Shown here piece after piece: positions 938 to 31,077 of a stretch of 35,658 bases of DNA. The DNA is from Ferruginibacter sp. (lineage in GTDB: Bacteria; Bacteroidota; Bacteroidia; Chitinophagales; Chitinophagaceae). The position numbers and the translations under genes are program-made. Position 1 is the stretch's first letter, and each line of letters begins with the position of its first letter. The notes beneath the pieces are model-generated. The model worked only from the letters and a program-made list of their open reading frames with translations. It was not told the origin of the DNA and made no database searches. The DNA lies in assembly GCA_030157685.1 (NCBI GenBank), contig JAOAUI010000451.1:1-35658 (forward strand), read 5' to 3'.

Positions 938-953
938 TGTAATAAATGTTACA
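938..953. promoter_or_regulatory. putative Crp/Fnr-family operator, TGTAATAAATGTTACA
   Basis: Near-perfect 16-bp inverted repeat. Same motif at 1406, 4106 and 4584. Ends 21 nt before TAATTTAC (975-982), a 4/6 match to TAnnTTTG. Confidence 0.65.
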
Positions 954-999
954 GAGCATTAACCGACAATTGTTTAATTTACTTTTAAAATTATTTAGT

Positions 1000-1209
1000 A
1001 TGAAAAAGAATATGGGTAACACAGACCGCATTATACGCCTGCTGCTGGCAGCGGTTGTAGCAGTTTTATATTTTACCAATGTCATCACCGGTACGTTGGG
1101 CATTGTATTGCTTTTGGTAGCAGGCGTATTTGTATTAACAAGCCTCATAAGCTTTTGCCCGCTTTATACTTTAATAGGCTTAAATACCTGCCCGGCTAAA
1201 AAGAAATAA
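1000..1209 (+). CDS. DUF2892-like (YgaP-type transmembrane domain) small membrane protein
   Basis: Internal ATG at 1000 gives MKKNMGNTDRIIRLLLAAVVAVLYFTNVITGTLGIVLLLVAGVFVLTSLISFCPLYTLIGLNTCPAKKK, typical DUF2892 ('N.G..DR..R', 'FCPLY...G..TC'). Confidence 0.8.
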   Translation: MKKNMGNTDRIIRLLLAAVVAVLYFTNVITGTLGIVLLLVAGVFVLTSLISFCPLYTLIGLNTCPAKKK

Positions 1210-1405
1210 AGTTGTAGCCGCAATTGAAATACTAATTGCCGGTTTATTTGTCCCGTGTTTTTGTAACGCCTTAATAGATTGTTATTTCGGGTATGTGCCT
1301 GTATTTTAATAATCATCCTGCCTGTTCTTTCTCCAAAATTCGTAATATGCTTTCTGCATGAGCAACATCATATTGCTGTATGAGGCTTATCATAGTTGGG
1401 TATTA

Positions 1406-1421
1406 TGTGATATAAGTTACA
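1406..1421. promoter_or_regulatory. putative Crp/Fnr-family operator, TGTGATATAAGTTACA
   Basis: Fits TGTAAC-N4-GTTACA with changes in the left arm. Ends 21 nt before CAATTTTG (1443-1450), a 5/6 match to TAnnTTTG. Confidence 0.6.
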
Positions 1422-1484
1422 ATGCCGCAGTTTTTTTTGGCACAATTTTGAGTTGTAATTAGATTATCAACTTAAAAAAATGTT

Positions 1485-1940
1485 ATGGAAACCGCTTATC
1501 ATTACGAAGTAAAAGTGAATTGGGAAGCCGACAGAAAAGGCTCAATGAGTTCTCCCGTTTTAAATACAAAAATAGAAGTGGCAACGCCACCTGAATTTCC
1601 AAAGGGCATGCCGGGCATCTGGTCTCCCGAGCATTTGCTGGTAGCTGCAGTTAACAGTTGCCTGATGACAACCTTCCTGGCCATTGCAGAAAACTTCAAA
1701 TTCGATTTTATAGATTTTGAAAGTAATGCCAATGGTACACTTGAAAAAGTGGATGGAAAATTTATGATGAGCGAAGTTATCCTGTCTCCGGTGTTAACCA
1801 TTGCCCCTGATGCAGATAAAGAGAAAGCCATCCGTATCCTGGAAAAATCAGAAGCAGCCTGCCTGATTTCTAATTCTGTAAAAGCAAAAATTGTTTTTAA
1901 GCCCGAAATTAAAATAACTGAACTGGTAGAACCAGTTTAA
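1485..1940 (+). CDS. OsmC family protein
   Basis: SPEHLLVAAVNSCLMTTF and C-terminal SEAACLISNSVKAKI motifs typical of the OsmC/Ohr fold. Confidence 0.85.
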   Translation: METAYHYEVKVNWEADRKGSMSSPVLNTKIEVATPPEFPKGMPGIWSPEHLLVAAVNSCLMTTFLAIAENFKFDFIDFESNANGTLEKVDGKFMMSEVILSPVLTIAPDADKEKAIRILEKSEAACLISNSVKAKIVFKPEIKITELVEPV

Positions 1941-1952
1941 AAACTAACTTAT

Positions 1953-3188
1953 ATGAAACACATTGTAATCTTGGGAGCCGGAACAGCAGGAACCATGATG
2001 GCCAATCACCTGCATCACCAGTTAAAACATCCCGATTGGGAAATAACCATTATTGATGAACGGGAAGAACACCATTATCAACCTGGTTATCTTTTTTTGC
2101 CTTTTGATATTTATGCACCGGAAGATATTATCAAGACAATTGAAGAGTTTATACCAAAGGATGTAAAACTGGTTAAAAATAAAATCAACCGCATTTTACC
2201 TGCCGATAATAAAATAGAACTTACCGGCGGCGATGAGATTGCGTATGATAAACTGATCATTGCAACAGGCGCTAAAATTGCTCCGGAAGAAACCGAAGGT
2301 ATGAAAGGAGCAGAATGGCAGAAATCTGTTTTTGATTTTTACACTTTTGAAGGATCTCTTGCTTTGAGAAACAAACTGAGGGATTGGGAAGGTGGTAAAC
2401 TGGTTGTTCATATTACAGAGATGCCTATTAAATGCCCGGTAGCACCTTTGGAGTTTGCTTTTTTGGCCGATTCTTTTTTCAAACACAAACACATGCGTGA
2501 CAAAGTGGAGATCACTTATGTAACCCCATTAAGCGGTGCATTTACAAAACCAAAAGCTACCGAAGCGCTTGAACATTTATTGCATGAAAAAGGCATCAAC
2601 ATAGAACCTGATTTCGCCATAGAAAAAGTTGATAATGAAAGGAAAGAAATTGTGGATTATGGCGGCAAAGTAATTCCCTTTGATTTGCTGGTAACTGTAC
2701 CCACCAATAAAGGAGATGAATTAATGGAAAGATCAGGCATGGGCGATGATTTGAATTATGTGCCTACCAATAAAGCCACCCTGCAATCCAAAGACTATAC
2801 AAATATTTTTGTTTTAGGCGATGCCAGTAATATACCTGCTTCCAAAGCCGGTTCTGTGGCCCACTTTGAAGCAGAAATATTAACAGATAACATTCTTCGC
2901 TTTGTACATGGCGAGCCTTTGAAAGAAGAATTTGACGGACATGCAAACTGCTTTATCGAAACCGGTAATGGCAAAGCACTGCTGATAGATTTTAATTATA
3001 CCCATGAACCGGTTGAAGGAAGTTTCCCATTTCCTGGTATTGGCCCTTTGCGCTTATTAAAAGAAAGCCGGATGAATCATATGGGCAAACTGGCTTTCAG
3101 GTGGATATACTGGAACGTATTATTGAAAGGAACACATATTCCATTTGTATCAGCAACGATGTCTGAAAAAGGAAAACATTATGCTTAA
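1953..3188 (+). CDS. sulfide:quinone oxidoreductase-like FAD-dependent NAD(P)/FAD oxidoreductase
   Basis: N-terminal GAGTAGTMMANHL Rossmann motif, IIATGAKIAPEE, FVLGDASNIPASKAG. Cys in IKCPVAPLEF and ANCFIETG at positions expected for the SQR redox disulfide. Confidence 0.8.
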   Translation: MKHIVILGAGTAGTMMANHLHHQLKHPDWEITIIDEREEHHYQPGYLFLPFDIYAPEDIIKTIEEFIPKDVKLVKNKINRILPADNKIELTGGDEIAYDKLIIATGAKIAPEETEGMKGAEWQKSVFDFYTFEGSLALRNKLRDWEGGKLVVHITEMPIKCPVAPLEFAFLADSFFKHKHMRDKVEITYVTPLSGAFTKPKATEALEHLLHEKGINIEPDFAIEKVDNERKEIVDYGGKVIPFDLLVTVPTNKGDELMERSGMGDDLNYVPTNKATLQSKDYTNIFVLGDASNIPASKAGSVAHFEAEILTDNILRFVHGEPLKEEFDGHANCFIETGNGKALLIDFNYTHEPVEGSFPFPGIGPLRLLKESRMNHMGKLAFRWIYWNVLLKGTHIPFVSATMSEKGKHYA

Positions 3189-3216
3189 TTTTTTTAAATC
3201 TTTAAAATAAAAAATC

Positions 3217-3525
3217 ATGGAAAAGATAATAGCAGGTAAAAACATTACCGTAAATGAAGAAGGATACTTAACAGACTTTAGCCAATGGGATGAACAAGTA
3301 GGTGAAGCCCTTGCAGCAGAAGCCAACATTCCTTTAAGCGCAAGGCATTGGGAAATATTAAAGTATCTGCAAAACGAACAAAAAAACCAGGTTGCGCTCA
3401 GCATCAGGCGTATTGGTAAAAGCGGTGTAACTGATATCAAGGAGTTCTACCAGTTATTTCCAAATGCACCTTTAAAAACCGCAACAAAAATTGCCGGCAT
3501 ACCAAAGCCCGCCAGTTGTATTTAA
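3217..3525 (+). CDS. TusE/DsrC/DsvC family sulfur carrier protein
   Basis: DEEGYL-like NEEGYLTDFSQWDEQVGEALA, LSARHWEILKYL, and C-terminal AGIPKPASCI with conserved penultimate Cys. Confidence 0.9.
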   Translation: MEKIIAGKNITVNEEGYLTDFSQWDEQVGEALAAEANIPLSARHWEILKYLQNEQKNQVALSIRRIGKSGVTDIKEFYQLFPNAPLKTATKIAGIPKPASCI

Positions 3526-3545
3526 TCAATTAAAATTTGTCAATT

Positions 3546-4028
3546 ATGAGTGAAAATAACGGAGCAATAAAAAAGATGATGATCATCTTATCAAAAGGAA
3601 CATTGGAAAATGTATATGCTGCTTTTGTATTGGCCAACGGAGCCCGTATGGAAGGAATTGAGTCTGAAATATTTTTTACTTTTTTCGGACTTGAAGCAGT
3701 TCATAAAAAGAAACTGGAACACCTGCATGTAGCCACAGTAGGAAATCCGGCTATGCACATGCCAACCATGCTGGGAGGTTTACCGGGTATGGAGGCGCTG
3801 GCAAGCAGCATGATGAAAAAGGAAATGGAAAAAATTGATATGCCGGATGTACATGAGTTTTTAGATATACTGACCGCTTCAGGTGTTAAATTATGGGCAT
3901 GTAAACTGGCGATGGATATGTTTCATTACAAGAAGGAAGATTTATATGAAGGCGTTGATGCAGTTATTACCGTAGGCGATTTTTATAAACAAAGCCAGGG
4001 CGAAGGTGTGCATATGCTGTTTGTATAA
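3546..4028 (+). CDS. DsrE/DsrF/DrsH-like (DsrE2) family protein
   Basis: Internal ATG at 3546. Segments MMIILSKGTLENVYAAFVLANGA, GLEAV, GVKLWACKLAMDMF (conserved Cys), AVITVGDF. Confidence 0.85.
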   Translation: MSENNGAIKKMMIILSKGTLENVYAAFVLANGARMEGIESEIFFTFFGLEAVHKKKLEHLHVATVGNPAMHMPTMLGGLPGMEALASSMMKKEMEKIDMPDVHEFLDILTASGVKLWACKLAMDMFHYKKEDLYEGVDAVITVGDFYKQSQGEGVHMLFV

Positions 4029-4076
4029 ACAGGAATATGTAAGACCTGGATTACGGTTTAAATTCAGTTTAGATAC

Positions 4077-4102
4077 AAAGAGCAGCTGCGGCTGCTCTTT
4101 TA
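4077..4102 (+). terminator. intrinsic terminator after the OsmC-SQR-TusE-DsrE2 operon
   Basis: AAAGAGCAGC-TGCG-GCTGCTCTTTT: perfect 10-bp stem with T-run. Confidence 0.75.
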
Positions 4103-4105
4103 GTT

Positions 4106-4121
4106 TGTAACAAATGTTGCC
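4106..4121. promoter_or_regulatory. putative Crp/Fnr-family operator, TGTAACAAATGTTGCC (degenerate right arm)
   Basis: Matches the TGTAAC-N4-GTTACA family. Lies 21 nt before TTGCTTAG (4143-4150, 4/6 match to TAnnTTTG). Confidence 0.5.
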
Positions 4122-4171
4122 GATATTTATGTTATTTTCAGCTTGCTTAGTTCACTTATTAAATACTAAAT

Positions 4172-4492
4172 ATGAACACTCAAACAAACAATAATATCAA
4201 TAAAGACCTCATTCTGCGGGAGCGGCTGGCGTTACAAAGAACATCCATGAGCAACGATACAACGCTCTTATCTTTTATAAGAACGGCATTGTATTTCTCA
4301 ATTGCAGGCATGTCGGTTAATACACTGTTAAAGGTAAACTACGGGTTATGGATCGAAATTGTTTTTTGGGCAATATCGTTATGCATCTTAACAATCGGAA
4401 TTATAAAATACTTCAGGCAAAAACAAAGCCTGCGGGACAGTGAAAAACACATTGGAGATTATAAACTGAATTGGGAAGCAGATGATGAATAA
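4172..4492 (+). CDS. DUF202 (YidH-like) membrane protein
   Basis: ILRERLALQRTSMSNDTTLLSFIRTALYFSIAGMS, followed by a hydrophobic helix pair. Confidence 0.8.
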   Translation: MNTQTNNNINKDLILRERLALQRTSMSNDTTLLSFIRTALYFSIAGMSVNTLLKVNYGLWIEIVFWAISLCILTIGIIKYFRQKQSLRDSEKHIGDYKLNWEADDE

Positions 4493-4583
4493 GCTGGTTT
4501 TATTGAAAATAAGCACACTTTTAATTCCCCGTATCTTTATTAAATAAGCCTGTTACCGGCGTCGACAGGATATCCTGCTCATA

Positions 4584-4599
4584 TGTAACCTTTGTTACT
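4584..4599. promoter_or_regulatory. putative Crp/Fnr-family operator, TGTAACCTTTGTTACT
   Basis: Inverted repeat GTAAC-N4-GTTAC. Ends exactly 21 nt before a perfect -7 element TACATTTG (4621-4628). Confidence 0.7.
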
Positions 4600-4620
4600 T
4601 AAATACCGCATTAGTGCATT

Positions 4621-4628
4621 TACATTTG
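4621..4628 (+). promoter_or_regulatory. Bacteroidetes-type -7 promoter element TACATTTG
   Basis: Perfect TAnnTTTG match, 18 nt before the ATG at 4647. Confidence 0.55.
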
Positions 4629-4646
4629 CATTAATAAATTGAAACC

Positions 4647-4883
4647 ATGAAACAGACTATTCTTTCAAACTGGACATTAATGAGGTTCCTGCGCCTGGCA
4701 ATGGGTATTGCCATATTGGTGCAGGCTGTAATTGCAAAAGATATGCTGTTTGCTTTTGCAGGCATTGTATTTACAGCAATGCCGGTTTTTAATGTTGGAT
4801 GTTGCGGTACGACTGGCTGTGCTGCTCCGCCTAAAAAAAATCAGGATGCAACAAAAGATATTATTTATGAAGAAGTGGTTTAA
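4647..4883 (+). CDS. DUF2892-like small membrane protein with Cys-rich C-terminus
   Basis: MRFLRLAMGIAILVQAVIAKDMLFAFAGIVFTAMPVFNVGCCGTTGCAAPPKK. Confidence 0.7.
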   Translation: MKQTILSNWTLMRFLRLAMGIAILVQAVIAKDMLFAFAGIVFTAMPVFNVGCCGTTGCAAPPKKNQDATKDIIYEEVV

Positions 4884-5103
4884 AAATAATGCACTGTATT
4901 TTATTGGTGCTGCCGTTGGCGCCCTTGCAGGATATGTTTACTGGCAACAGGTTGGTTGTGCATCCGGCACCTGCATGATCACATCCAAACCAATTAACAG
5001 TACCCTTTACGGAGCTATGATGGGTTCTTTGTTGTTTGGCATTTTTAAAAAAGAAAAGAAAAAAGAAATTATAAAAGAAGGAGAAAATAATCATGACATT
5101 TAA
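4867..5103 (+). CDS. small membrane protein, DUF6132-like (GC.SGTC motif)
   Basis: ATG at 4867 gives MKKWFKNNALYFIGAAVGALAGYVYWQQVGCASGTCMITSKPINSTLYGAMMGSLLFGIF... Overlaps the preceding and following genes (translational coupling). Confidence 0.65.
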   Translation: MKKWFKNNALYFIGAAVGALAGYVYWQQVGCASGTCMITSKPINSTLYGAMMGSLLFGIFKKEKKKEIIKEGENNHDI

Positions 5104-5389
5104 CGAGATCATAAATGCTGACAAACCGGTACTGGTTGATTTTTTTGCAGAATGGTGCGGACCCTGCAAAATGATGGCACCCATTCTTAAAGATGTAAAA
5201 AAAGAAGTTGGGGAAGCTGTTACCATTATTAAGGTTGATGTAGATAAAAGCCCGCAGGCCGCACAGGAATACCAGGTGCAGGGTGTACCCACACTGATAC
5301 TTTTTAAAAATGGCAAACCGCTTTGGAGACAAAGTGGAGTAGTGCCCAAAGCAGGGTTGGTTGGCGTAATAAAAAAATTCACAGTTTAA
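5093..5389 (+). CDS. thioredoxin family protein
   Basis: VLVDFFAEWCGPCKMMAPIL active site, VQGVPTLILFKNGK cis-Pro loop. Confidence 0.95.
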   Translation: MTFNEIINADKPVLVDFFAEWCGPCKMMAPILKDVKKEVGEAVTIIKVDVDKSPQAAQEYQVQGVPTLILFKNGKPLWRQSGVVPKAGLVGVIKKFTV

Positions 5390-5400
5390 AAAATAAAAAA

Positions 5401-5712
5401 ATGAACATTTTACAACAGTTATTTGGTAGTGGTCCCAAAGTAGATATTAAAGCCACCATTGCAGAAGGCGCTTTTTTAGTAGATGTAAGATCACCCGGGG
5501 AATTTAATTCAGGCCATGTAAAAGGATCGGTAAATATTCCATTAGACAGCATTACACATCAGCTGGCAAAATTTAAAAACAAAAAAAATATTATTGTATT
5601 TTGTAGAAGTGGTAACAGAAGCAGCATGGCAAAATCTATCCTTGAACAGAATGGATTTACCAACGTGGTAAACGGCGGTACATGGAATAATGTAAACCAG
5701 TATGTACAATGA
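5401..5712 (+). CDS. cytoplasmic rhodanese-like domain protein
   Basis: FLVDVRSPGEFNSGHVKGSVNIPL, active-site loop FCRSGNRS. Confidence 0.93.
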   Translation: MNILQQLFGSGPKVDIKATIAEGAFLVDVRSPGEFNSGHVKGSVNIPLDSITHQLAKFKNKKNIIVFCRSGNRSSMAKSILEQNGFTNVVNGGTWNNVNQYVQ

Positions 5713-6071
5713 AATACTTTAAATTGAGCCTTGTTGCAGTTACGCTGATGTTTGGTTTGTTGTCATGCACAAATGGCAATGAGGAATCAGGTACAACTGA
5801 AGCAAAACCCGCCGATACTGCCATTGCAAAAACAATTATTGTGGATGTAAGAACTATTGAGGAATGGGAAAATGATGGCCATGCAAATTGCAGCGTTAAC
5901 TATCCTTTAGCCGACCTGGATAAAAAAATAGAAGGACTAAAAGCCTATGATAAGATTGTTTTAGTTTGCCGCAGTGGCAGCAGGGCCGGTGTGGCCAAGG
6001 AAATGCTTGAACAGGCCGGGATTAAAAACGTTGAAAACAAAGGAGCCTGGCAGAATATTAACTGTAAGTAG
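5709..6071 (+). CDS. exported lipoprotein rhodanese
   Basis: Signal peptide with lipobox FGLLSC, IIVDVRTIEEWENDGHANCSVNYPL, VCRSGSRAG. ATGA overlap with upstream gene. Confidence 0.9.
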   Translation: MKYFKLSLVAVTLMFGLLSCTNGNEESGTTEAKPADTAIAKTIIVDVRTIEEWENDGHANCSVNYPLADLDKKIEGLKAYDKIVLVCRSGSRAGVAKEMLEQAGIKNVENKGAWQNINCK

Positions 6072-6095: not shown

Positions 6096-6935
6096 ATGGA
6101 AAGTTTAAAAATACTGATACCAACAGATTTCTCTGTGCAGGCTGAGTTTGCTTACCTGATGGTAAAAAAACTGGAAGAAAAAACTCCCACCGAAATTCAC
6201 TTTCTGCATGTGCTGGATGTGCCGGATACGGTAACCATGGATGAAGGTGGCAATATTCAAACCTGCGGCGAAATTGATGTGAACTATGTAATAACGCAGA
6301 AAGAAATTGCAGAGCGAAAGCTTGCCAATCTTAAAATATTGTATGGCAGCCATATTCAAACAAACCTGGTATTGGGAAAACTTACTGATGCTATTATAAA
6401 TTTTTCGGAGGCCAATCATTTTGATATGATTGTAATGGGTACCAAAGGTGCCTGGGGTATTAAAGAAAAACTTTCGGGTTCCGAAACACAAATTATTGCA
6501 CGCAGATCAAAAACGCCGCTGCTTTCATTAATGTGCGACCGTTCCGACCTGGTCATCAAAAATATATTACTCGTACACAATTTCAGTAACCCGGCAACGG
6601 AAGACCTGAAGCTGATGCATAAACTGATTGGTGCATTTGGTACAAAACTTCACCTGCTGCAGATTACTTCCGGAAATGTGGATGCAGAAAAAACAACCGT
6701 TGAAAGCAACATGAAAAAATTTGCAGCGCTCAACAATATTGAAAATTTCGAATGCCATTTAATAAATGATAAAGATGTTGAGAACGGCGTTATTCATTTT
6801 AACCAGATGATTAATATGGATATTATTTGTATAGGAACGCATGGCAAGGGAGGCGTTTTTCACCAAAGTGCAACTGAAAAACTGATCAACCATTTATTCA
6901 AACCCATTATTTCATTTCAACTAAACAATCAATAA
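6096..6935 (+). CDS. universal stress protein (tandem UspA domains)
   Basis: ILIPTDFSVQAEFAY, DMIVMGTKGA, second domain ending DIICIGTHGKGGVFH. Confidence 0.88.
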   Translation: MESLKILIPTDFSVQAEFAYLMVKKLEEKTPTEIHFLHVLDVPDTVTMDEGGNIQTCGEIDVNYVITQKEIAERKLANLKILYGSHIQTNLVLGKLTDAIINFSEANHFDMIVMGTKGAWGIKEKLSGSETQIIARRSKTPLLSLMCDRSDLVIKNILLVHNFSNPATEDLKLMHKLIGAFGTKLHLLQITSGNVDAEKTTVESNMKKFAALNNIENFECHLINDKDVENGVIHFNQMINMDIICIGTHGKGGVFHQSATEKLINHLFKPIISFQLNNQ

Positions 6936-6941
6936 AAAAAT

Positions 6942-7499
6942 ATGAGAGAGTTGATTACACAAACCTGGTCCTGGTGGTTTTCGGGAGCCATGATAGCAGG
7001 TATCATGTTTTTTCTTTTGTACTTCGGGCAGTCATTTGGTTTTTCTTCTAATTTAAGAACCATTTGCGCTGCTGCAGGAGCAGGCAAAAAAACAAAATTC
7101 TTCGATTTTAAATGGAAAACCCAGATATGGAATTTAGTGTTTTTAGTTGGTGCTATTATCGGCGGTTTTATTGCAAAACAATTTATGTCAACAGATCTGC
7201 CTGTTCAGATTTCTACAGATACCATCAGCGATTTAGCAAAGTTGGGTATTGCAGCGCCGGCATCTTTACAACCTGCAGAGTTATTTAGCCTGGATGCAAT
7301 ACTTTCTGTAAAAGGTTTTTTGGTATTGGCCATGGGCGGGTTGATGGTGGGCTTTGGCTCCCGTTATGCAGGTGGTTGTACTTCAGGTCATGCTATCAGT
7401 GGTTTATCCGATCTGCAGGTTCCTTCTCTAATTGCGGTAGTTGGGTTTTTTATTGGCGGACTGGCAATGACATTTTTAATTCTCCCTTTAATATTTTAA
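6942..7499 (+). CDS. YeeE/YedE family (sulfur-compound transporter) half-protein A
   Basis: MGGLMVGFGSRYAGGCTSGHAISGLSDLQ signature plus several TM helices. Confidence 0.85.
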   Translation: MRELITQTWSWWFSGAMIAGIMFFLLYFGQSFGFSSNLRTICAAAGAGKKTKFFDFKWKTQIWNLVFLVGAIIGGFIAKQFMSTDLPVQISTDTISDLAKLGIAAPASLQPAELFSLDAILSVKGFLVLAMGGLMVGFGSRYAGGCTSGHAISGLSDLQVPSLIAVVGFFIGGLAMTFLILPLIF

Positions 7500-7503
7500 T
7501 CAG

Positions 7504-7917
7504 ATGAAGTTTATAAAATTTCTCATACTCGGAATTGTTTTTGGAATTGTAATGGCAAAGTCAGAAGCCATTTCCTGGTTCAGAATACAGGAGATGTTTC
7601 GTTTTCAGGCTTTTCATATGTATGGTATTATTGGTACGGCTGTTACATTAGGTGTTATTGGTGTTGCCCTGATCAAGAAATTTAAAATAAGAGATTTTCA
7701 TGGCAACCCCATTTCGTTTTATCCCAAAGAAAAATCTATTATACGGTATCTTTTGGGAGGTATCATTTTTGGATTAGGTTGGGCATTGAGTGGTGCCTGT
7801 CCCGGGCCAATGGTAGTTAATATTGGCTATGGCTTTTTAACCATGACGATCGTATTTCTGTTTGCCATTGTTGGTACTTATTTATATGGATTGATTAAGG
7901 ATAAATTACCTCATTAA
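7504..7917 (+). CDS. YeeE/YedE family (sulfur-compound transporter) half-protein B
   Basis: GGIIFGLGWALSGACPGPMVVNIGYG signature. Confidence 0.85.
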   Translation: MKFIKFLILGIVFGIVMAKSEAISWFRIQEMFRFQAFHMYGIIGTAVTLGVIGVALIKKFKIRDFHGNPISFYPKEKSIIRYLLGGIIFGLGWALSGACPGPMVVNIGYGFLTMTIVFLFAIVGTYLYGLIKDKLPH

Positions 7918-7933: not shown

Positions 7934-9016
7934 ATGTACAACGAGCAGGAAGACAAAAGAACCGAGGGACTGGTTTCTATAATCAATAAATTACTGTTGG
8001 TGATTGTGGTATTGGTAATCACCATTGTTGCCATGCCATTTATTTTATTTTACAAAGGCCAACCGGCCAAGCCGGAAACGCAAAATATTGCAACTTCTGC
8101 TGAAGCAGTAAAAACAGATACCACAAATTATTGGACAGCACCGGATATTAATTCAATTACTGACGTCAAACAAAAAGAGCAGGTAGTTTATGGCCAGGAA
8201 TTAATTGCACACACAGCCAAATACTTTGGCCCCAATGGTTCTGTACTAAAAATAACCAATGGCTTAAATTGTCAGAACTGCCACTTGCAGGCAGGTACAG
8301 CCGTTTTTGGTAACAACTATGGTTCTGTTGCTTCGCTGTATCCAAAATTCAGAGCCAGGAGCGGAAGTGTAGAAAATATTTACAAAAGAGTTAATGATTG
8401 TTTTGAAAGAAGTTTAAACGGAAAGGCAATTGATACAGGTGGAAAAGAAATGAAGGCCATTGTTGCATACATCAAATTTGTAGGATCTAATGTAGAGAAG
8501 GGGAAAAAAGCAGCAGGCTCAGGCTTTAAAGATCTTGCCTGGCTTGACCGTGCTGCTGACCCCGGGAAAGGGCAGATAGTTTATACAAGCAAATGCCAAA
8601 GCTGCCACCAGGCAAATGGCGAAGGAGTTTTTAATACCGATAAAACTGAATATACTTACCCGGCTTTATGGGGCAAAAACAGTTTTAACGATGGTGCCGG
8701 TTTATACCGCATCAGCAATTTTGCAAAATATGTAAAGTATAATATGCCGCAGGGAGTAACACATGTAAGTACACAGCTTGCAGATGAAGAAGCCTGGGAT
8801 GTTGCTGCATACATCATTTCACAAACAAGGCCGCATATCAATGTTCCGAAAGACTGGCCCGATATTTCAAAAAAACCGGTTGATCATCCTTTTGGGCCTT
8901 ATGCAGATGTATTTACCGACAAGCAACACAAGTACGGGCCTTTTAAACCCATTGTGGAAGAACAAAAGAAAAGAGAAGAACTGACAAAACAAAAAACTTC
9001 CATTGCAAAAAAATAA
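7934..9016 (+). CDS. dihaem cytochrome c, thiosulfate dehydrogenase (TsdA)-like
   Basis: Two CxxCH motifs (CQNCH, CQSCH) and IYKRVNDCFERSLNGKAID, resembling the TsdA Cys-ligand segment. N-terminal TM anchor. Confidence 0.75.
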   Translation: MYNEQEDKRTEGLVSIINKLLLVIVVLVITIVAMPFILFYKGQPAKPETQNIATSAEAVKTDTTNYWTAPDINSITDVKQKEQVVYGQELIAHTAKYFGPNGSVLKITNGLNCQNCHLQAGTAVFGNNYGSVASLYPKFRARSGSVENIYKRVNDCFERSLNGKAIDTGGKEMKAIVAYIKFVGSNVEKGKKAAGSGFKDLAWLDRAADPGKGQIVYTSKCQSCHQANGEGVFNTDKTEYTYPALWGKNSFNDGAGLYRISNFAKYVKYNMPQGVTHVSTQLADEEAWDVAAYIISQTRPHINVPKDWPDISKKPVDHPFGPYADVFTDKQHKYGPFKPIVEEQKKREELTKQKTSIAKK

Positions 9017-9026
9017 ATTCAGCCAC

Positions 9027-10721
9027 ATGGAAAACAACAGAAGGGATTTTATAAAAAAAATAGGTACGCTGGGCGGTGCAGGGCTGTTGGCTTCCTCACC
9101 AATTATTGCTATGGCAGGTACACAAGAAAATGCAATGCCTGATTATCAGACTTTGGCCGACGATAAACCCTTTACCATTTCTATTTTACAAACTACCGAT
9201 GTGCATTGCCAGGTTCAACCACATGATGAGTTGTTTTGGGAAAACGATCAAGCTGTGTTTCGCAAAACCGGCGGCTACGCTCACTTAGCTACTTATCTGC
9301 AAAATGAAAGAAAGAAAAACCCGAATACTTTTTTAATTGATACCGGCGATATGTTCCAGGGCAGCGAACTGTCTGTAAAAACAACCGGCAAAGCCATGGT
9401 ACCTATCTTAAATGCACTGGGTTACGATCTGTATTTGCCCGGCAACTGGGAAGTTATTTATTACAAAAAAGCTATGCAAACTTTATTGGGTTCATTAAAT
9501 GCGCCCAAGGTTTGTGCCAATATGTATCACGATCTGGGCGAGGGTAAAAAAGGAGAATTGATTTTTCCTCCTTATTATATCTGGAATATCAAAGGCGTGA
9601 AAATTGGTTTTATTGGCTATACAGACCCATTGGTTCCGCTTCGCCAATCGCCCAATTACAGCAAAGGAATTATTTACACCAAGCCCGAAGAAAACCTGGC
9701 ACATTATGTAGATGTATTGCGCAACCAGGAACAATGTGCTTATGTTTTAATTGTTGCCCATTTGGGATTATCGCAGCAAATTCATCTTGCAAATCAGGAA
9801 GAATGTAAGGGTGTTGATTATATTCTTGGGGGCGATACGCATGAAAGGGTGAGAAAACCCATTCAATGCAAATACAGTAAAGTGGTGGAGCCGGGTGCAT
9901 TTGGTTCTTTTGTGGGTAAACTTAATCTTACCATACAAAATGGCAAAGTGATAAAAGATGACTACGAATTGGTGGAAATAACAGCAGACAAATTCAAGCC
10001 TTCAAAAGAAATAGCTGCTTTAATTAAAAACAATGAACAGCCTTTTGAAAAAGATATTTATACAGTTGCAGGTTACAGTACCATTCCGTTGTACAGGTAT
10101 TTTGTGGTAGAAAATCCGATAGACACCATGATACTGGATGCGTTGAAATGGAAAGTGCCGGATATGGATATTGTATTATCAAATGGATTTCGTTTTTGCC
10201 CGCCACGCACAACGCCCGATCATACCGGCAACATTCCCATCACCGACGGATATATTTACGATATGTTTCCGGTGGATAGTACGGTAAGAACCGGCATGGT
10301 GACAGGCAAACAAATTAAAGAATGGCTGGAAAAAGAATTACATAATGTTTTTGCCAAAGATGCATCGGAACGTTTTGGTGGATGGGTGATAAAGTTTAAA
10401 GGAATGAAAGTGACCTTTAATGCTTTTGCAGAAAAAGGTAAAAGAGTACAGACTGTATCTGTTGCCAACACGCCACTTGATCCCGATAAAATGTATAAGA
10501 TATGTGCCTGCGAACGGGATGGCGACCCCAGTGATATGCTTTGCCGGATGAGGAATGTAGCCAATGCGGCAAATACGCATTACACTTTACATTCTGTTAT
10601 GAAAGATTACCTGGCAGCCAATTCGCCGGTTACACCAACGCCGCCGGAGAATGCCGATATACTGGATGCTCCGCAAACATTGCTTACACAGGTTACCGGG
10701 GTAGATTATCAGTTTCATTAA
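9027..10721 (+). CDS. Tat-exported SoxB-like / 5'-nucleotidase-superfamily metallophosphoesterase
   Basis: NNRRDFIKKIGTLGGAGLLASSP twin-arginine signal; metal motifs QTTDVHCQ, DTGDMFQGS, PGNWE, VAHLGL, GGDTHER; C-terminal 5'-nucleotidase-type domain. Confidence 0.75.
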   Translation: MENNRRDFIKKIGTLGGAGLLASSPIIAMAGTQENAMPDYQTLADDKPFTISILQTTDVHCQVQPHDELFWENDQAVFRKTGGYAHLATYLQNERKKNPNTFLIDTGDMFQGSELSVKTTGKAMVPILNALGYDLYLPGNWEVIYYKKAMQTLLGSLNAPKVCANMYHDLGEGKKGELIFPPYYIWNIKGVKIGFIGYTDPLVPLRQSPNYSKGIIYTKPEENLAHYVDVLRNQEQCAYVLIVAHLGLSQQIHLANQEECKGVDYILGGDTHERVRKPIQCKYSKVVEPGAFGSFVGKLNLTIQNGKVIKDDYELVEITADKFKPSKEIAALIKNNEQPFEKDIYTVAGYSTIPLYRYFVVENPIDTMILDALKWKVPDMDIVLSNGFRFCPPRTTPDHTGNIPITDGYIYDMFPVDSTVRTGMVTGKQIKEWLEKELHNVFAKDASERFGGWVIKFKGMKVTFNAFAEKGKRVQTVSVANTPLDPDKMYKICACERDGDPSDMLCRMRNVANAANTHYTLHSVMKDYLAANSPVTPTPPENADILDAPQTLLTQVTGVDYQFH

Positions 10722-10737: not shown

Positions 10738-12159
10738 ATGAAAAAATTACTGGTAGCATCAATGATGTTGCTTGCAGGGCATATTGTATCAGCACAACAC
10801 CAGGAGGTTTCTGAAAAACCTGATATGTATAAAGGCAAACAGGTTCAAACAGTAGATACAACTTCTTTGTTATCGGCATTTAAAAGAGGGCATTTTAACG
10901 GGCATTTCAGATATTTTTTAATGGCTACTGATAATAAAGCAGGCCTTACCGATTATTATGCCAATGCGGCTGGCGGCGGCATCCGCTACGAAACGGCAAG
11001 GTTTCACGGTTTTCAGTTTGCGGTAAGTGGCTTCTATACTTTTAATATTGGTTCATCCGACCTGGGGAAACCAGATAGTACAACAGGCCAATCTAACCGG
11101 TATGAAATAGCGTTGTTTGATGTTGAAAACCCGTACAACAAAAAAGATATTGACAGGCTGGAAGAGTTCTATTTAAAATACCAACGTAAAAATATTTCCA
11201 TCAGTTTTGGCCGGCAGTTACTGAATACGCCGTTCATTAATTTACAGGATGGCAGAATGAGGCCAACAGGTGTAGAGGGAGTCTGGATGGAATATAATGA
11301 TACAAAGAAAATAAAAGCAGAAGGAGGTTTGCTGTATGCTGTTTCTCCAAGAGGTACTACCAAATGGTATCATATCGGAGAATCAGTGGGTGTTTATCCT
11401 TCAGGCGTAAATGCGGATGGAACAAAATCGCAATACAATAATAATGTAAGCAGTAAAATTGTTGCCTTGCTCGGATTAAATTTTAAGGCCCACAAAAATT
11501 TGAATTTACAGGTATGGGATGTATATACAGATAATGTTTTTAACACCGCCATGCTGCAGGCCGATCTGTTGTTTCCTCAAAAAAATAACAGTTCTTTTTT
11601 TGCAGCAACTCAGTTTACCAGGCAGGATGCTATTAATAATGGTGGAAATACAAATGCAGCTAAAACCTATTTTGAAAAGAGCGGAAAATCTTTCAGCTTT
11701 GGTGCCAGAGCCGGCTGGAAAAATAAAACCTGGGAAACCAGTATTAACTATAACCGCATTACAGCCCACGGCCGCTATTTAATGCCCCGTGAATGGGGCC
11801 GGGAACCTTTCTTTACATTTTTACCCCGTGAACGTAATGAAGGTTTTGGTGATGTACATGCCATTATGGGTAAAGTAAATTTCAATATTCCCAAAGCAGG
11901 TATGAAAACATCTCTGGCAGCAGGTTATTATAAATTACCCGATGTAAAAAATTACCGGTTAAATAAGTATGGCTTACCTTCATACACGCAGGTAAATGCC
12001 GATATACGTTATTCGTTTCCTGGTATACTAAAAGGGTTTGAAGCGCAGTTATTGGTTGTTTGGAAAATGAATACCGGGGAAATGTATAACAATAAACGTT
12101 TTGAGATTAACAAGGTAAATATGCTGCAATACAATTTTGTTTTAAACTTTCATTTTTAA
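10738..12159 (+). CDS. OprD-like outer-membrane porin
   Basis: Signal peptide ending VSAQ; beta-barrel pattern; LEEFYLKYQRKNISISFGRQLLNTPFINLQDGRM; terminal aromatic residue (NFHF*). Confidence 0.7.
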   Translation: MKKLLVASMMLLAGHIVSAQHQEVSEKPDMYKGKQVQTVDTTSLLSAFKRGHFNGHFRYFLMATDNKAGLTDYYANAAGGGIRYETARFHGFQFAVSGFYTFNIGSSDLGKPDSTTGQSNRYEIALFDVENPYNKKDIDRLEEFYLKYQRKNISISFGRQLLNTPFINLQDGRMRPTGVEGVWMEYNDTKKIKAEGGLLYAVSPRGTTKWYHIGESVGVYPSGVNADGTKSQYNNNVSSKIVALLGLNFKAHKNLNLQVWDVYTDNVFNTAMLQADLLFPQKNNSSFFAATQFTRQDAINNGGNTNAAKTYFEKSGKSFSFGARAGWKNKTWETSINYNRITAHGRYLMPREWGREPFFTFLPRERNEGFGDVHAIMGKVNFNIPKAGMKTSLAAGYYKLPDVKNYRLNKYGLPSYTQVNADIRYSFPGILKGFEAQLLVVWKMNTGEMYNNKRFEINKVNMLQYNFVLNFHF

Positions 12160-12164
12160 TCAGC

Positions 12165-12800
12165 ATGATGAACATAGATAACCTTAAGCATATTTTTGAA
12201 CCGCAGTTATTGCAGGAAATACAACAGTTCGGCATCATTCAGCATTTTAAAGAAGGGGATCTGATTATGGATTACGGAAAGTACATCCGTATGATGCCCA
12301 TTGTTTTAAACGGAACAATAAAAGTGTACCGCCTGGATGAAGAGGGCCGTGAAATTTTGTTGTATTATTTATCCAGCAGCGAAAGTTGTTCTATGGCTTA
12401 CAGTTGCTGTATTGAAGCAAAGAAGAGTGAAGTAAAAGCCATTGCAGAAGATGATGTGGAGCTGATAGCCATACCCCATATTAAACTGGATGAATGGCTT
12501 TGTAAATATTCCAGCTGGAAAAACTACATCATGCGTAGTTTTAATGAACGCTTTATTGAATTATTGAAATCAATTGAAAGTATTGCTTTTCATAAACTGG
12601 ATGACAGGCTGATAGAGTACCTGAAAGATAAACAGCGCATCACCGGATCCAGCGTTATAAAAGCATCGCATAGTTTAATTGCAGATGAGCTGGCAACATC
12701 AAGGGTTGTAATATCCAGGTTATTGAAACAACTGGAAAACAGTAAGAAGATAATTTTATACCGTAACGAAATAAAATTGTTGCCGGCTTTAGATCAGTGA
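12165..12800 (+). CDS. Crp/Fnr family transcriptional regulator
   Basis: Cyclic-nucleotide-binding-like N-domain (LNGTIKVYRLDEEGREILLYYL) and winged HTH (SLIADELATSRVVISRLLKQLENSKKI). Contains SCSMAYSCC. Confidence 0.9.
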   Translation: MMNIDNLKHIFEPQLLQEIQQFGIIQHFKEGDLIMDYGKYIRMMPIVLNGTIKVYRLDEEGREILLYYLSSSESCSMAYSCCIEAKKSEVKAIAEDDVELIAIPHIKLDEWLCKYSSWKNYIMRSFNERFIELLKSIESIAFHKLDDRLIEYLKDKQRITGSSVIKASHSLIADELATSRVVISRLLKQLENSKKIILYRNEIKLLPALDQ

Positions 12801-17550: not shown

Positions 17551-20500
17551 ATGATAAACAAGGATTCTTTTAATAAAGAAAGCAAAATTAATTTGACGGG
17601 CCGTAATGCTACAGTTGCATCACTTTTAAACAGGCATGTGCTGTTTGGCATTTTGGCTTTTACCATTCTTGCAGCTTTATCTGCTTCGCTTATATATCAG
17701 CAATACCGCATCTTTAAGCAGGAACAAAAGAAACAAGGATATATTGTTGCAGAACATGCCAAAGAAAAACTGCAGGAAGCACTCGCCAATAGTTTATCAG
17801 CAACAAAAATCCTTTCATTTTTTATTGATCAAAACGGAGTGGTTAAAAACTTCGACTCTGTTGCTGCACAAATATTAAGTACCAATAAAGGGATAGATGC
17901 TTTGGAATTGGTACCTGGCGGTGTTATACAGCATATTTATCCCTTGCAGGGAAATGAAAATGTCATCGGCTACAATATTTTAAAAGATTCAACAAGGAGC
18001 AAAGAAGCGCTGAGAGCGATTGAAAAAAATGAGTTGTTTTTTTCGGGGCCATTTAATTTAAAGCAAGGAGGCTTCGGCATTGTGGGAAGGCTGCCTGTTT
18101 TCAGAAATGGGAAGTTCTGGGGATTTTCTGCAGTAGTTATTAAAATGGCCACTTTATTAAAAACAGTGGATATAGACACCACAGGTAAAAACGGGTATTA
18201 TTTTCAACTTTCAAAAATTAACCCAGGTACCGGCAAAAATGAATTTTTTATCCCACATGCAACAAAGCCATTAAAGGATTATGCAATTTATGTAGAACTG
18301 CCTATTGGCGATTGGAAGCTATCTGTAGAGCCGGTGACAGCAAATAAAGGGTTCATACAAATTTTAATTCTTGGTATAATCGGTTTATTGTTTTCTGCTT
18401 TCGGTGGTTTATTTGTGACTACCATTTTACGAAGGCCCGAAAAACTGGAGAGGCTTGTTAAAGAACGCACCAGGGAATTAAAAGGAAGCGAAAAAAAATA
18501 CCGCTCGGTGGTTGAAAGGGTTTCGGATGCTTTTATAGCCCTGGATGTAAACGGGGTTTACACTTATGTAAATGAAAAAGCAGGTGAAATATTATCTAAA
18601 AAACCGGAAAACCTGGTAGGAGAAAATATCTGGGCCGAATTTCCCGAAACTGTTCACCAACCATTTTATTATGCATGCCACAGGGCTATGCAAATGCAGG
18701 AATACCAGTACGTAGAAGAGTTTGACCCGCATTTAAATAAATGGATCGAGAATCATATCTATCCTTCAAAAGACGGGCTGACTATTTTTTTTAAAGATGT
18801 TACCGAAATTAAACAGATAACACTTGCATTAAAAAATAACGAAGAAAAATACCGGTCGCTGATAGAACAGGCCTCGGATGGAATTGTAATTACAGATCTG
18901 GAAGGTGTTATTCTTGAAGTGAATAACAGTATTAAAAAGATGATTGGATATGAGGAAGAAGAAATGATCGGCCATTATCTTGCCAAATATTTACCCGAGC
19001 CGGATATTGACGCAACACCTTTAAGAATAAATGAATTGATGCGGGGTAAAAGCCTTTTGTATGAAAGAAAGCTTGTAAAAAATGACGGAACGCTTATAGA
19101 TGTGGAAATAAATTCCAGGATGGCCAGCTCTCATACATTGATTGGTTTTATAAGGGATATTACCGAAAGAAAGAAACATGAAAATACACTACTGTACCAG
19201 GCAAGGCTGCTTGAAAGTGTTTCAGATGCCATTGTATCGCTGGATATGAACCGCTGTATTGTAAGCTGGAACAAAGCATGCGAAGATTTGTTTGGATTTA
19301 CTGCCGATGAGGTAATTGGAAAAAGAGTACCCGAACTGATAAGTTTTGAATATCCCGATACAAATAATGAAGCCGTATTTAAGCAGGTATTTACCGAAGG
19401 GAAATGGAAAGGCGAATTTAATTTTATACATCCAAAATCCGGAGAAAAGATACATCTGTTAAGCGGGATCAACCTCTTAAAAAACAAAGCAGGTATTGTA
19501 AATGGTTTTATTATTACCAGTAGCAATATTACCGAAAGAAAAAAAGTAGAAGAAGAGATCAGAACATCCAAAGAGCGGTTTGAATTGATAGCCGAAGCTA
19601 CCAACGATGCCATTTGGGATCATGATTTTACAAAGAACGAAACCTGGGGCAATAAAAAATTATATAACCTCTACGGGCTTGCAGCTGATCAGAAAATTAA
19701 TTTTGAAATGTTTTTAGAACACATTCATCCGGATGAAAGAGCAAATATTTTAACCAGGATGAAGCAGGCTATGGATAATTCGGAAAGTTCATTGTCGGAA
19801 ATTTTTCTTTTTAAAACGGACGATGGGTATAAAACATTTTTTGACCGTGCTTATATCAAGTACGACGATGCCGGTAACCCCATCAGGATATTAGGTGCTA
19901 TGCAGGATATTACCGAAAGAGAAAAAGCCGCCGAAATACTACAGCAGTCTGAAAAAAAATACAAGCTGCTTTTCAATAATAATCCGCTGCCGATGTTGAT
20001 GACAACGATACCAGAACTGGATTTTATTGATATTAATGAGGCTGCAATAAAACAGTATGGCTATACCAGGGAAGAGTTTTTGCAAATGAATTCAAGAAGT
20101 TTACGGCCTGATGAAGATGTGGAGAATTTTATAAAGGAGGTAGAAAAAATGCAGGCAGGTGTTATCAACACAAGAAACTGGCGCCACAAAAGAAAGGATG
20201 GCAGTATTATACAGGTAGAAACATACAGTCATCAGATTATGTACGAAGGGAAAATGGTATGGCTTGGATTAATACATGACGTAACCGAAAAGTATGAGGC
20301 TAAGGAGTTGTTGCAAAAATCGTATGAAGATATTCGCCAGCTGGTATCCAACCTGCAAACGATCAGGGAAGATGAACGAACCACCATTGCACGGGAAATA
20401 CATGATGAACTGGGGCAACAACTTACCGGGCTGAAACTGGACCTGCATTGGCTTATGCGAAAAATGAACAGCACCGATGATGAGATTACCGGCAAAATGA

Positions 20501-20991
20501 AAGAGAGTATTGAACTGATCAATGCAACAATAGGTTCGGTAAGAAAAATATCTACAAACCTGCGGCCAAGCATTCTTGATGACCTTGGTTTATTGCCGGC
20601 TTTGGAATGGCATGGCGAAGAGTTTGAAAAACGCTCAGGTACAAAAGTTGTGTTTGTAAATGATGTTGGTGATATCATGGTGTCTCCACAGGTTGCTACA
20701 GGTATTTTCAGGATATACCAGGAACTGCTTACCAATATAGCCCGGCACGCAAATGCCAGCCTGGTAAAGGCTTCTTTAACTAAAGATGAAGACAGATTGT
20801 ATTTCAGCATAAAGGATAACGGTGTTGGGGTTGATACAGAAACTATAAAAAATAAAAAAACACTGGGTTTATTGGGCATTAAAGAACGCAGCCTGCTTTT
20901 TGGCGGCACCTATGAATTTATAAGCAAACCGGGCGAGGGTTCTGTAACTACTATATCTATTCCGTTACAACATGTAAAAACCAACATTTAA
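17551..20991 (+). CDS. sensor histidine kinase: CHASE-like sensor, five PAS domains, HisKA_3 and HATPase
   Basis: ATG at 17551. CHASE-like extracytoplasmic region between two TM helices, repeated DITERKK PAS/PAC segments, TIAREIHDELGQQLTGLKLDLHWL, DNGVGVDTE/LGLLGIKERSLLFGG. Confidence 0.92.
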   Translation: MINKDSFNKESKINLTGRNATVASLLNRHVLFGILAFTILAALSASLIYQQYRIFKQEQKKQGYIVAEHAKEKLQEALANSLSATKILSFFIDQNGVVKNFDSVAAQILSTNKGIDALELVPGGVIQHIYPLQGNENVIGYNILKDSTRSKEALRAIEKNELFFSGPFNLKQGGFGIVGRLPVFRNGKFWGFSAVVIKMATLLKTVDIDTTGKNGYYFQLSKINPGTGKNEFFIPHATKPLKDYAIYVELPIGDWKLSVEPVTANKGFIQILILGIIGLLFSAFGGLFVTTILRRPEKLERLVKERTRELKGSEKKYRSVVERVSDAFIALDVNGVYTYVNEKAGEILSKKPENLVGENIWAEFPETVHQPFYYACHRAMQMQEYQYVEEFDPHLNKWIENHIYPSKDGLTIFFKDVTEIKQITLALKNNEEKYRSLIEQASDGIVITDLEGVILEVNNSIKKMIGYEEEEMIGHYLAKYLPEPDIDATPLRINELMRGKSLLYERKLVKNDGTLIDVEINSRMASSHTLIGFIRDITERKKHENTLLYQARLLESVSDAIVSLDMNRCIVSWNKACEDLFGFTADEVIGKRVPELISFEYPDTNNEAVFKQVFTEGKWKGEFNFIHPKSGEKIHLLSGINLLKNKAGIVNGFIITSSNITERKKVEEEIRTSKERFELIAEATNDAIWDHDFTKNETWGNKKLYNLYGLAADQKINFEMFLEHIHPDERANILTRMKQAMDNSESSLSEIFLFKTDDGYKTFFDRAYIKYDDAGNPIRILGAMQDITEREKAAEILQQSEKKYKLLFNNNPLPMLMTTIPELDFIDINEAAIKQYGYTREEFLQMNSRSLRPDEDVENFIKEVEKMQAGVINTRNWRHKRKDGSIIQVETYSHQIMYEGKMVWLGLIHDVTEKYEAKELLQKSYEDIRQLVSNLQTIREDERTTIAREIHDELGQQLTGLKLDLHWLMRKMNSTDDEITGKMKESIELINATIGSVRKISTNLRPSILDDLGLLPALEWHGEEFEKRSGTKVVFVNDVGDIMVSPQVATGIFRIYQELLTNIARHANASLVKASLTKDEDRLYFSIKDNGVGVDTETIKNKKTLGLLGIKERSLLFGGTYEFISKPGEGSVTTISIPLQHVKTNI

Positions 20992-21001
20992 AACTAAAAA
21001 C

Positions 21002-21631
21002 ATGCTGCGTATTTTAATTGCCGATGACCACACTGTAGTTAGAAAAGGGTTGAGACAGATTTTGCTGGATGAATTTTCAACAGCAGAAATTGAAGAAGTG
21101 GCCGATGCTGAAGCGTTGATACAAAAAGTGATGACTGCAAAATGGGATGTGGTTGTAAGCGACCTGTCTATGCCCGGCCGCAGCGGATTGGATGCCCTGC
21201 AGCAAATTAAGCTCAGTCATCCCAATTTGCCGGTACTCATTTTAAGTATTCATCCCGAGGAGCAATATGCTTTGCGTGCACTTAAATCAGGTGCTTCGGG
21301 CTATTTAAGTAAAGATACCGCACCCGATGAACTGGTAAAAGCAGTACAAAGAGTGCTGCTGGGAAAAAAATATATACCGCAGGGAATTGCCGAAAAACTG
21401 GCCGGCACCATTTCTTCAGATACGTTAATCAGCCCTCATGAAAACCTCAGCGACCGGGAGTTTGATGTAATGAAGCTTCTGGCAAACGGTAAATCAGTTT
21501 CGGAAATTGCCGATATGCTTTCTCTAAGCGCAACCACATTAAGTACTTACCGAACCAGGATAATGGCTAAAATGAATTTGAAATCCAATGCAGACCTTAC
21601 CAGATACGCAATTGAAAACAAGTTGATTTAA
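21002..21631 (+). CDS. NarL/FixJ-type response regulator
   Basis: Receiver domain (ILIADDHTVVRKGL, VVSDLSMPGRSGLD, LSKDTAPDEL) and LuxR HTH (LSDREFDVMKLLANGKSVSEIADMLSLSATTLSTYRTRIMAKM). Confidence 0.95.
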   Translation: MLRILIADDHTVVRKGLRQILLDEFSTAEIEEVADAEALIQKVMTAKWDVVVSDLSMPGRSGLDALQQIKLSHPNLPVLILSIHPEEQYALRALKSGASGYLSKDTAPDELVKAVQRVLLGKKYIPQGIAEKLAGTISSDTLISPHENLSDREFDVMKLLANGKSVSEIADMLSLSATTLSTYRTRIMAKMNLKSNADLTRYAIENKLI

Positions 21632-28901: not shown

Positions 28902-29063
28902 AACGATTTATTTACGTACCAAAGATAATTGTTTAAAAAGGTATTGCTGTGTGTACCATTAATCATCAGATAATGCCGTTTATTAAAAAATTGTTACGAA
29001 TTGATAAAAAACCTGATGGAAACTATGGTTACATTAAAAGTTTCCTTAGTTTTGCATCCGATT

Positions 29064-29699
29064 ATGACAGAAACAGATACAAAATCAAGAATTCAGAAAG
29101 CAGCACACGACCTGGTGATGCGATACGGTATACGCAGCGTAAGTATGGATGATATTGCCAATAACCTGGGCATGAGCAAAAAAACCATTTACCAGTATTT
29201 TAAAGATAAAGACGAACTGGTAGAAGCCGTGGTAGACGAGGTTATATCAACCAACCAATATGCCTGTAAAGAAGATATTGACAAATCAGAAAATGCAGTG
29301 CATGAGATTTTTCTGGTGATGGAAATGATGGCCGAGATGTTTAAGACCATGAATCCATCCATACTGCATGATATGCAGAAATACCATCCAACAGCCTTCA
29401 GTAAATTCAAAAAACATAAAAACGAATTCCTGTATAACGTGTGTACACAAAACATGCTGCGTGGTGTACAGGAAGAGTTATACCGGCCCGAAATGGCAGT
29501 AGATATTTTATGCCGGTACCGGGTAGAAACTATGTTTATCCCCTTCAATCCTGAATTTCAGCAAAGCTTAAAACACAGTTTGGCAAAAATTGAAGAAGAG
29601 ATACTGATGCATTTTCTTTTTGGGCTGGTATCACAAAAGGGTTACAAACTGATCATTAAGTACAGGGAACAAAAAGAAAAAGAATCGGCAAAAAAATAA
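29064..29699 (+). CDS. TetR/AcrR family transcriptional regulator
   Basis: TKSRIQKAAHDLVMRYGIRSVSMDDIANNLGMSKKTIYQYFKDKDELVEAVV. ATG at 29064. Confidence 0.92.
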   Translation: MTETDTKSRIQKAAHDLVMRYGIRSVSMDDIANNLGMSKKTIYQYFKDKDELVEAVVDEVISTNQYACKEDIDKSENAVHEIFLVMEMMAEMFKTMNPSILHDMQKYHPTAFSKFKKHKNEFLYNVCTQNMLRGVQEELYRPEMAVDILCRYRVETMFIPFNPEFQQSLKHSLAKIEEEILMHFLFGLVSQKGYKLIIKYREQKEKESAKK

Positions 29700-29719
29700 A
29701 AAGTAATAAAATAGTTGCG

Positions 29720-31054: not shown

Positions 31055-31077
31055 TTAAACAGACCAACTATAAACAG

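Follow-up and report, generated by a model that had tools for sequence, protein, structure and literature searches.

Four intergenic regions of a Ferruginibacter sp. contig (JAOAUI010000451.1, positions 1 to 35,658; this whole 35,658-nucleotide (nt) stretch is called the window) carry a 16-bp palindrome ahead of genes for sulfur metabolism. Do these palindromes constitute a single family of activator-dependent promoters, and which protein would act on them? Each palindrome is followed at a fixed distance by an octamer resembling the Bacteroidota -7 element TAnnTTTG, and a Crp/Fnr-type protein is encoded downstream at 12165-12800. We propose, with a probability of roughly 0.83 for regulator, operator, and geometry taken jointly, that this protein is an activator acting at the four palindromes with class II geometry. 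The elements concerned are as follows, ranks being those of the position weight matrix (PWM) described below:

938..953, + strand: operator 1, TGTAATAAATGTTACA, 5′ of the DUF2892/YgaP-type transmembrane gene; PWM rank 3 in the window
975..982, + strand: candidate -7 element, TAATTTAC, 21 nt 3′ of operator 1; weak match, 4/6
1406..1421, + strand: operator 2, TGTGATATAAGTTACA, 5′ of osmC-sqr-dsrC-dsrE; PWM rank 2
1443..1450, + strand: -7 element, CAATTTTG, 21 nt 3′ of operator 2; 5/6
4106..4121, + strand: operator 3, TGTAACAAATGTTGCC, 5′ of the DUF202 gene; PWM rank 4, the weakest of the four
4143..4150, + strand: candidate -7 element, TTGCTTAG, 21 nt 3′ of operator 3; weak match, 4/6
4584..4599, + strand: operator 4, TGTAACCTTTGTTACT, for the main sulfur operon; PWM rank 1
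4621..4628, + strand: -7 element, TACATTTG, 21 nt 3′ of operator 4; 6/6

A first-pass annotation of the window had reported these four 16-mers and octamers, and its positions proved correct base for base, as did the 21-nt spacer and the -7 matches of 4/6, 5/6, 4/6, and 6/6; the distance from operator centre to octamer start is thus 29.5 nt at all four sites. By itself, the 16-mer is weak evidence: at up to 3 mismatches, it matches the window 31 times against 19 expected, which is only a mild enrichment. The four-site observation is not provable from the window alone but is, at the level of sequence, proved by comparison with other genomes.

For that comparison, a search with the sulfide:quinone reductase (SQR) of the window supplied 80 loci from Chitinophagaceae and relatives, in which we scored the composite, i.e., the operator palindrome, 21 nt, and the -7 box TAnnTTTG. 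With a box threshold of at least 5/6, the histogram of offsets peaks at exactly 21 nt (33/128 sites at up to 1 mismatch; 69/396 at up to 2), while other offsets hold 0-10 sites at up to 2 mismatches, typically about 1-4, and four scrambled palindromes run as controls on the related loci give no peak. Intergenic composites standing in front of a gene are distributed 3:121:3 over offsets 20, 21, and 22. A 45-nt PWM built from 140 sites, with the window and a sister genome excluded from training, ranks the reported sites 1-4 among about 71,000 window positions, with scores of 28.0, 27.6, 14.0, and 13.0 against 9.5 for the next best, and each site reaches p<0.001 against shuffled upstream regions. 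Since the training sites were chosen at offset 21, the ranks include the spacing, which the histogram supports independently; within-family sequences are related, so that p-values assuming independence are too optimistic.

Conservation in the sister genome follows the same elements. At the 1406 site, 16/16 operator and 8/8 -7 box positions are kept, compared to only 11/21 in the spacer; operator and box of the 4584 site are likewise unaltered, and six more related loci still show the 4584 composite, with 14-16/16 operator identity and as few as 5/21 matching spacer positions. For the promoters at 938 and 4106, support comes from PWM rank and from equivalent genes elsewhere rather than from sister-genome conservation: in the sister genome, a different site precedes DUF2892, and no DUF202 gene was seen next to these genes, while about 11 other loci have orthologous DUF2892 genes with a composite, and DUF202 is also present in regulon clusters of other genomes.

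Used as a DNA-only query, the same composite turns up mainly ahead of sulfur genes. Among 297 Bacteroidota genomes there are 78 perfect composites, compared to 4 for reversed controls; by a hand count of the genome table, 75 of them lie in the 74 genomes of the window's class, identified as Bacteroidia through the Chitinophagaceae relatives, and 3 in the other 223. Among 28 loci retrieved across the phylum with no criterion but the DNA pattern, a regulon-gene homologue lies immediately downstream in 23, and 12 of these are metallo-β-lactamase–rhodanese proteins. Genes behind composites in the related loci encode (i) metallo-β-lactamase–rhodanese proteins, (ii) flavin disulfide reductase–rhodanese fusions, (iii) SQR, (iv) TauE/SafE, and (v) YeeE, as well as DUF2892, OsmC, thioredoxin, peroxiredoxin, TolC of RND pumps, and cytochrome bd; in larger pieces from other families, YeeE, SoxB, SoxA/TsdA-like proteins, DUF202, DUF2892, and rhodanese genes are interspersed with the sites, frequently alongside a gene of Crp type. 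In one relative (G023), nine composites lie within the 26 kb surrounding its regulator gene, including a palindrome (L162:5699-5714; C1:2653698-2653713) with a perfect TAnnTTTG 21 nt off both sides, facing two divergent genes. In further relatives, TolC/RND-pump operons lie under a composite and are closely followed by small conserved genes and the regulator (L019:13339-19158, L164:4483-10260, L165:7989-13734). By genome comparison we could thus show a predicted sulfur regulon with a conserved operator and spacing, together with the regulator–operator link taken up below. The earlier proposal of a sulfur regulon gains support here, as the same gene classes recur downstream in many genomes. The claim that sites precede only these genes holds within the window but not genome-wide, where contig C137 has further composites; the regulon extends beyond the window.

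What, then, would bind the operator? The protein of 12165-12800 belongs to the Crp/Fnr proteins by PF00027 (35.6 bits, cutoff 27.5) and PF13545 (27.4 bits, cutoff 27), and its AlphaFold2 model (predicted local distance difference test score of 92) has only Crp/Fnr proteins as top matches among solved structures in the PDB. Its recognition helix carries R180-V181-R185, with Arg180 and Arg185 present in 45/45 regulator homologues, and a search with the regulator finds homologues in 125/150 family genomes. In 29 loci for which resemblance to the regulator was the sole selection criterion, there are 15 composites in 104 kb compared to 0 reversed controls. Composites number 81, compared to 31 controls, in family genomes that possess a close homologue, and 6, compared to 12, in those without any match (tallied by hand; Fisher p=0.002).

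A finer link comes from helix position 181, which is Val or Glu in the regulator clade and varies in step with base 4 of the operator, itself A or G. Half-sites with A versus G at this base (TGTAA-type being A) number 71:7 beside Val181 proteins and 19:61 beside Glu181 proteins, with locus L018 counted in the Glu group; in the per-protein count, from which L018 was omitted, mean A-type fractions are 0.96 for Val181 and 0.26 for Glu181 (p=5e-9). Residue 181 changes at least three times on the tree, mostly with a matching change in the operator; a lineage-level test at 60% clustering gave p=0.07 with too few lineages (6), and the tree-based view was used instead. The Val/Glu–A/G pairing agrees with the published specificity rule for residue 181 in Crp/Fnr proteins (PMC1274295). 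In the sister genome, a second, distant Crp/Fnr gene (L018:1849-2514; 33% identity, Glu181) stands directly 5′ of the DUF2892 composite GGTAACCTAAGTCACC. As composites cluster at its homologues, residue 181 covaries with base 4, and its gene closes the main operon, the 12165-12800 protein is the likely activator, in keeping with the role that the first-pass annotation had suggested for it.

These data also bear on the alternative that the sites serve another Crp/Fnr protein of the cell, e.g., a nitrosative-stress regulator of the HcpR2 type, the neighbouring regulator being a bystander. The published HcpR2 motif GTAACnnnnGTTAC has an identical core (PMC1274295), a perfect composite at L194 (G394:C3:771959-772003) precedes a gene identified by eye as hybrid cluster protein-like, and further Crp/Fnr genes may be missing from an assembly that is 77% complete. 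Yet the covariation ties the operator to residue 181 of the neighbouring protein, and HcpR2 has Pro181 where the clade of the window regulator has Val or Glu. Moreover, the genome yielded three Crp/Fnr proteins, of which only that of 12165-12800 has R180-V181-R185, the other two having different recognition helices, and no hcp gene (Pfam PF03063) was found in this 77%-complete genome or in four relatives with the regulon. We thus regard a bystander role as improbable. Separately, the L194 composite suggests an overlap with HcpR-type regulation in some lineage.

Several observations nonetheless weigh against the proposal. In the genome itself (3.18 Mb in 457 contigs, 77% complete, with the window in contig C451), composites at up to 2 mismatches number 8 compared to 17 for reversed controls; the raw count is not enriched. 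Five of these 8 composites do sit either in the window or on C137, a contig with genes for TauE and peroxiredoxin, and the sole perfect one is the 4584 site. On C137 (L182:135, 922, 2454, minus strand), composites lie around genes for TauE, a TPMT-like methyltransferase, and peroxiredoxin, the first one facing the contig end; the sister genome has the same gene order, followed by a metallo-β-lactamase–rhodanese gene. The -7 boxes of the 938 and 4106 sites match only 4/6, and these two are the least certain of the four. The Glu181 homologues at L106 and L108 retain A-type operators. Finally, 20 palindromes upstream of SQR genes lack a -7 box toward SQR, and the idea that they serve the divergent gene was borne out in only 4, where the opposite side offers a box matching at least 5/6; some of these palindromes therefore use another arrangement or are non-functional.

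Taken at their most sceptical, such counts would make the four sites chance palindromes: the window holds only modestly more palindromes than expected, own-genome composites fall below their control, and the 938 and 4106 sites, viewed one by one, could still conceivably be due to chance. As an account of all four it is scarcely credible, given ranks 1-4 under an independently trained model and the strict spacing in other genomes, and conservation of the 1406 and 4584 sites in the sister genome despite diverged spacers refutes it for those two.

The genes behind the window promoters, all of them on the + strand, are as follows:

1000..1209, +: DUF2892/YgaP-like transmembrane protein gene (Pfam PF11127, 8.8e-23)
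1485..1940, +: OsmC family gene (Pfam PF02566)
1953..3188, +: type III SQR gene (NCBIfam NF049943, 644 bits, cutoff 525)
3217..3525, +: DsrC/TusE sulfur relay gene (PF04358, TIGR03342)
3546..4028, +: DsrE2-like sulfur carrier gene (PF13686)
4172..4492, +: DUF202 membrane protein gene (PF02656)
4647..4883, +: gene for a small membrane protein, first in the main operon; no match to a Pfam family
4867..5103, +: DUF6132 gene (PF19628)
5093..5389, +: thioredoxin gene (PF00085)
5401..6071, +: two rhodanese genes, 5401-5712 and 5709-6071 (PF00581)
6096..6935, +: universal stress protein gene (PF00582)
6942..7917, +: two YeeE/YedE half-transporter genes, 6942-7499 and 7504-7917 (PF04143)
7934..9016, +: SoxA/TsdA-type cytochrome c gene (PF21342)
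9027..10721, +: SoxB-like thiosulfohydrolase gene (TIGR04486, 246 bits, under the cutoff of 550)
10738..12159, +: OprD-type porin gene (PF03573)
12165..12800, +: Crp/Fnr-type regulator gene, last of the operon (PF00027 and PF13545, over cutoff)

Gaps between genes of the operon behind the 4584 promoter range from -17 to 24 nt throughout, with the regulator gene 5 nt after the porin gene; as the final gene of the operon driven by the 4584 site, the regulator likely exerts positive feedback on its own operon. The small membrane protein gene of 4647..4883 also stands behind the composite in related loci. The SQR of 1953-3188 scores above the cutoff for the NCBIfam family "type III sulfide quinone reductase, selenoprotein subtype", although the window copy has an uninterrupted frame for an ordinary protein of 411 amino acids. 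Elsewhere in the window, a large CHASE/multi-PAS histidine kinase is followed by a LuxR-type response regulator (17551-21631), and a TetR-type regulator by an uncharacterised protein gene and a gene for an HlyD/CusB-type membrane-fusion protein (29016-32289).

How would the regulator work at these promoters? For sigma-A of Flavobacterium psychrophilum, TAnnTTTG has been measured at -12 to -5 (PMC9723704), which by analogy would place the operator from -49 to -34 and its centre at -41.5. This lends support to the -41.5 placement predicted earlier, and would be the class II position of cyanobacterial NtcA, whose GTAN8TAC core likewise lies at -41.5 (PMC3898017). As both core and position equal those of NtcA, class II activation is the best reading, resting on geometry only; activation rather than repression, the precise start sites, and binding itself are inferred. 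A dimer of the 12165-12800 protein would bind the 16-bp palindromes, centred 29.5 nt 5′ of the first TAnnTTTG base, cover the stretch in which a -33 element would be expected, and, acting as a class II activator, recruit RNA polymerase with sigma-A. It would thereby turn on genes for the oxidation and transfer of sulfide and sulfane sulfur, i.e., those for SQR, DsrC/DsrE2, rhodaneses, thioredoxin, YeeE transporters, the SoxA/TsdA-like cytochrome, and the SoxB-like protein in the window, plus the TauE and peroxiredoxin genes on another contig, with its own position at the end of the operon providing positive feedback.

The converse, that the regulator binds but represses and leaves the promoters once a signal appears, has precedent in that Crp/Fnr proteins including NtcA can repress (PMC3898017). 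Repressing NtcA sites, however, lie downstream of the -35 box (PMC3898017), whereas the operator-to-(-7) distance here is that of a class II activator. In addition, the PWM shows almost no base preference across the spacer, leaving no conserved element 5′ of the -7 box except the operator, as expected if an activator replaces the upstream promoter element. Repression is, on these grounds, quite unlikely.

The signal is the most speculative step. The regulator has cysteines only at 75, 81, 82, and 113; Cys75 is invariant among the 45 homologues, and the close clade retains C81/C82. Cys75 and Cys81-Cys82 lie at helix 76-84, aligning with the phosphate-binding cassette of CRP, and none of the cyclic AMP (cAMP)-pocket positions G71, E72, R82, S83, T127, and S128 is conserved in those homologues. 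As the cysteines occupy the cAMP-contact site, and as it would fit the sulfur target genes, we propose tentatively, at somewhat below even odds, that sulfane sulfur or thiol redox state is sensed via Cys75 and Cys81/82, where cAMP-binding Crp proteins hold phosphate. A similarly tentative extension is that the regulator represents an undescribed Bacteroidia Crp/Fnr subfamily, in which the pocket is replaced by a C-x5-C(C) sulfane-sulfur sensor and which governs a class-wide sulfide/persulfide regulon from TAnnTTTG class II promoters. A literature search, mostly confined to journals outside subscription, returned no Crp/Fnr sulfane-sulfur sensor, nor this operator with TAnnTTTG.

Competing with the sensing step only, the regulator could activate in the same manner but sense a diffusible ligand, a haem-bound gas (nitric oxide or carbon monoxide), or a nucleotide in its β-roll. 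The regulator has the fold of Crp proteins of the cyclic-nucleotide type, with a resemblance also to Porphyromonas gingivalis HcpR, and some more distant regulators of the wider family lack C81/C82, which counts against the cysteine proposal. The loss of all six tested pocket positions, the invariance of C75 with retention of C81/C82 in the close clade, and the sulfur genes as targets speak against a ligand, which we hold to be a doubtful yet serious contender.

Few activator-dependent Bacteroidota promoters are understood, and sulfide/persulfide sensing in this phylum appears undescribed in the literature searched. The composite provides a base-exact, genome-searchable rule, spanning several Bacteroidia families, that ties a regulator and its operator to the unusual -7 box and to a set of sulfur genes. 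It would thus allow a direct test of an activator working with this sigma factor, with the regulator as a concrete sulfur-sensor candidate.

Among known systems, sulfane-sulfur regulators include the ArsR-type SoxR/sHdrR, MarR, AdpA, and PerR proteins (PMC10451225, PMC12423496, PMC11211675, PMC9239190, PMC9952342). They resemble the proposed system in controlling, or responding to, sulfane sulfur, and differ from the window regulator in belonging to other protein families, several being repressors. HcpR2 proteins are Crp/Fnr regulators of nitrosative stress, including in Bacteroidetes (PMC1274295). Membership there, considered for the identical core motif, was rejected on Val181 in place of Pro181 and on the lack of PF03063 in the 77%-complete source genome and four relatives; the sequence match to P. 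gingivalis HcpR (9day, 3.7e-11) is weaker than that to 3dv8 (2.2e-37). E. coli cAMP-CRP and FNR share the Crp/Fnr domains and R180/R185 with the window regulator, and their class II sites are centred at -41.5. The regulator was rejected as a cAMP-CRP on the loss of cAMP-contact residues and an NCBIfam CRP score of 34 bits (cutoff 266), and as a 4Fe-4S FNR protein on the lack of an N-terminal Fe-S cysteine cluster. NtcA is among its best sequence matches of solved structure, although membership was rejected at 40.8 bits for TIGR03697 against a cutoff of 245. Like the window system, NtcA combines a GTAN8TAC core, a centre at -41.5, and about 22 nt from core to promoter box (PMC3898017); unlike NtcA, the window regulator has sulfur rather than nitrogen targets, the Bacteroidota box TAnnTTTG, and a sensory part of its own.

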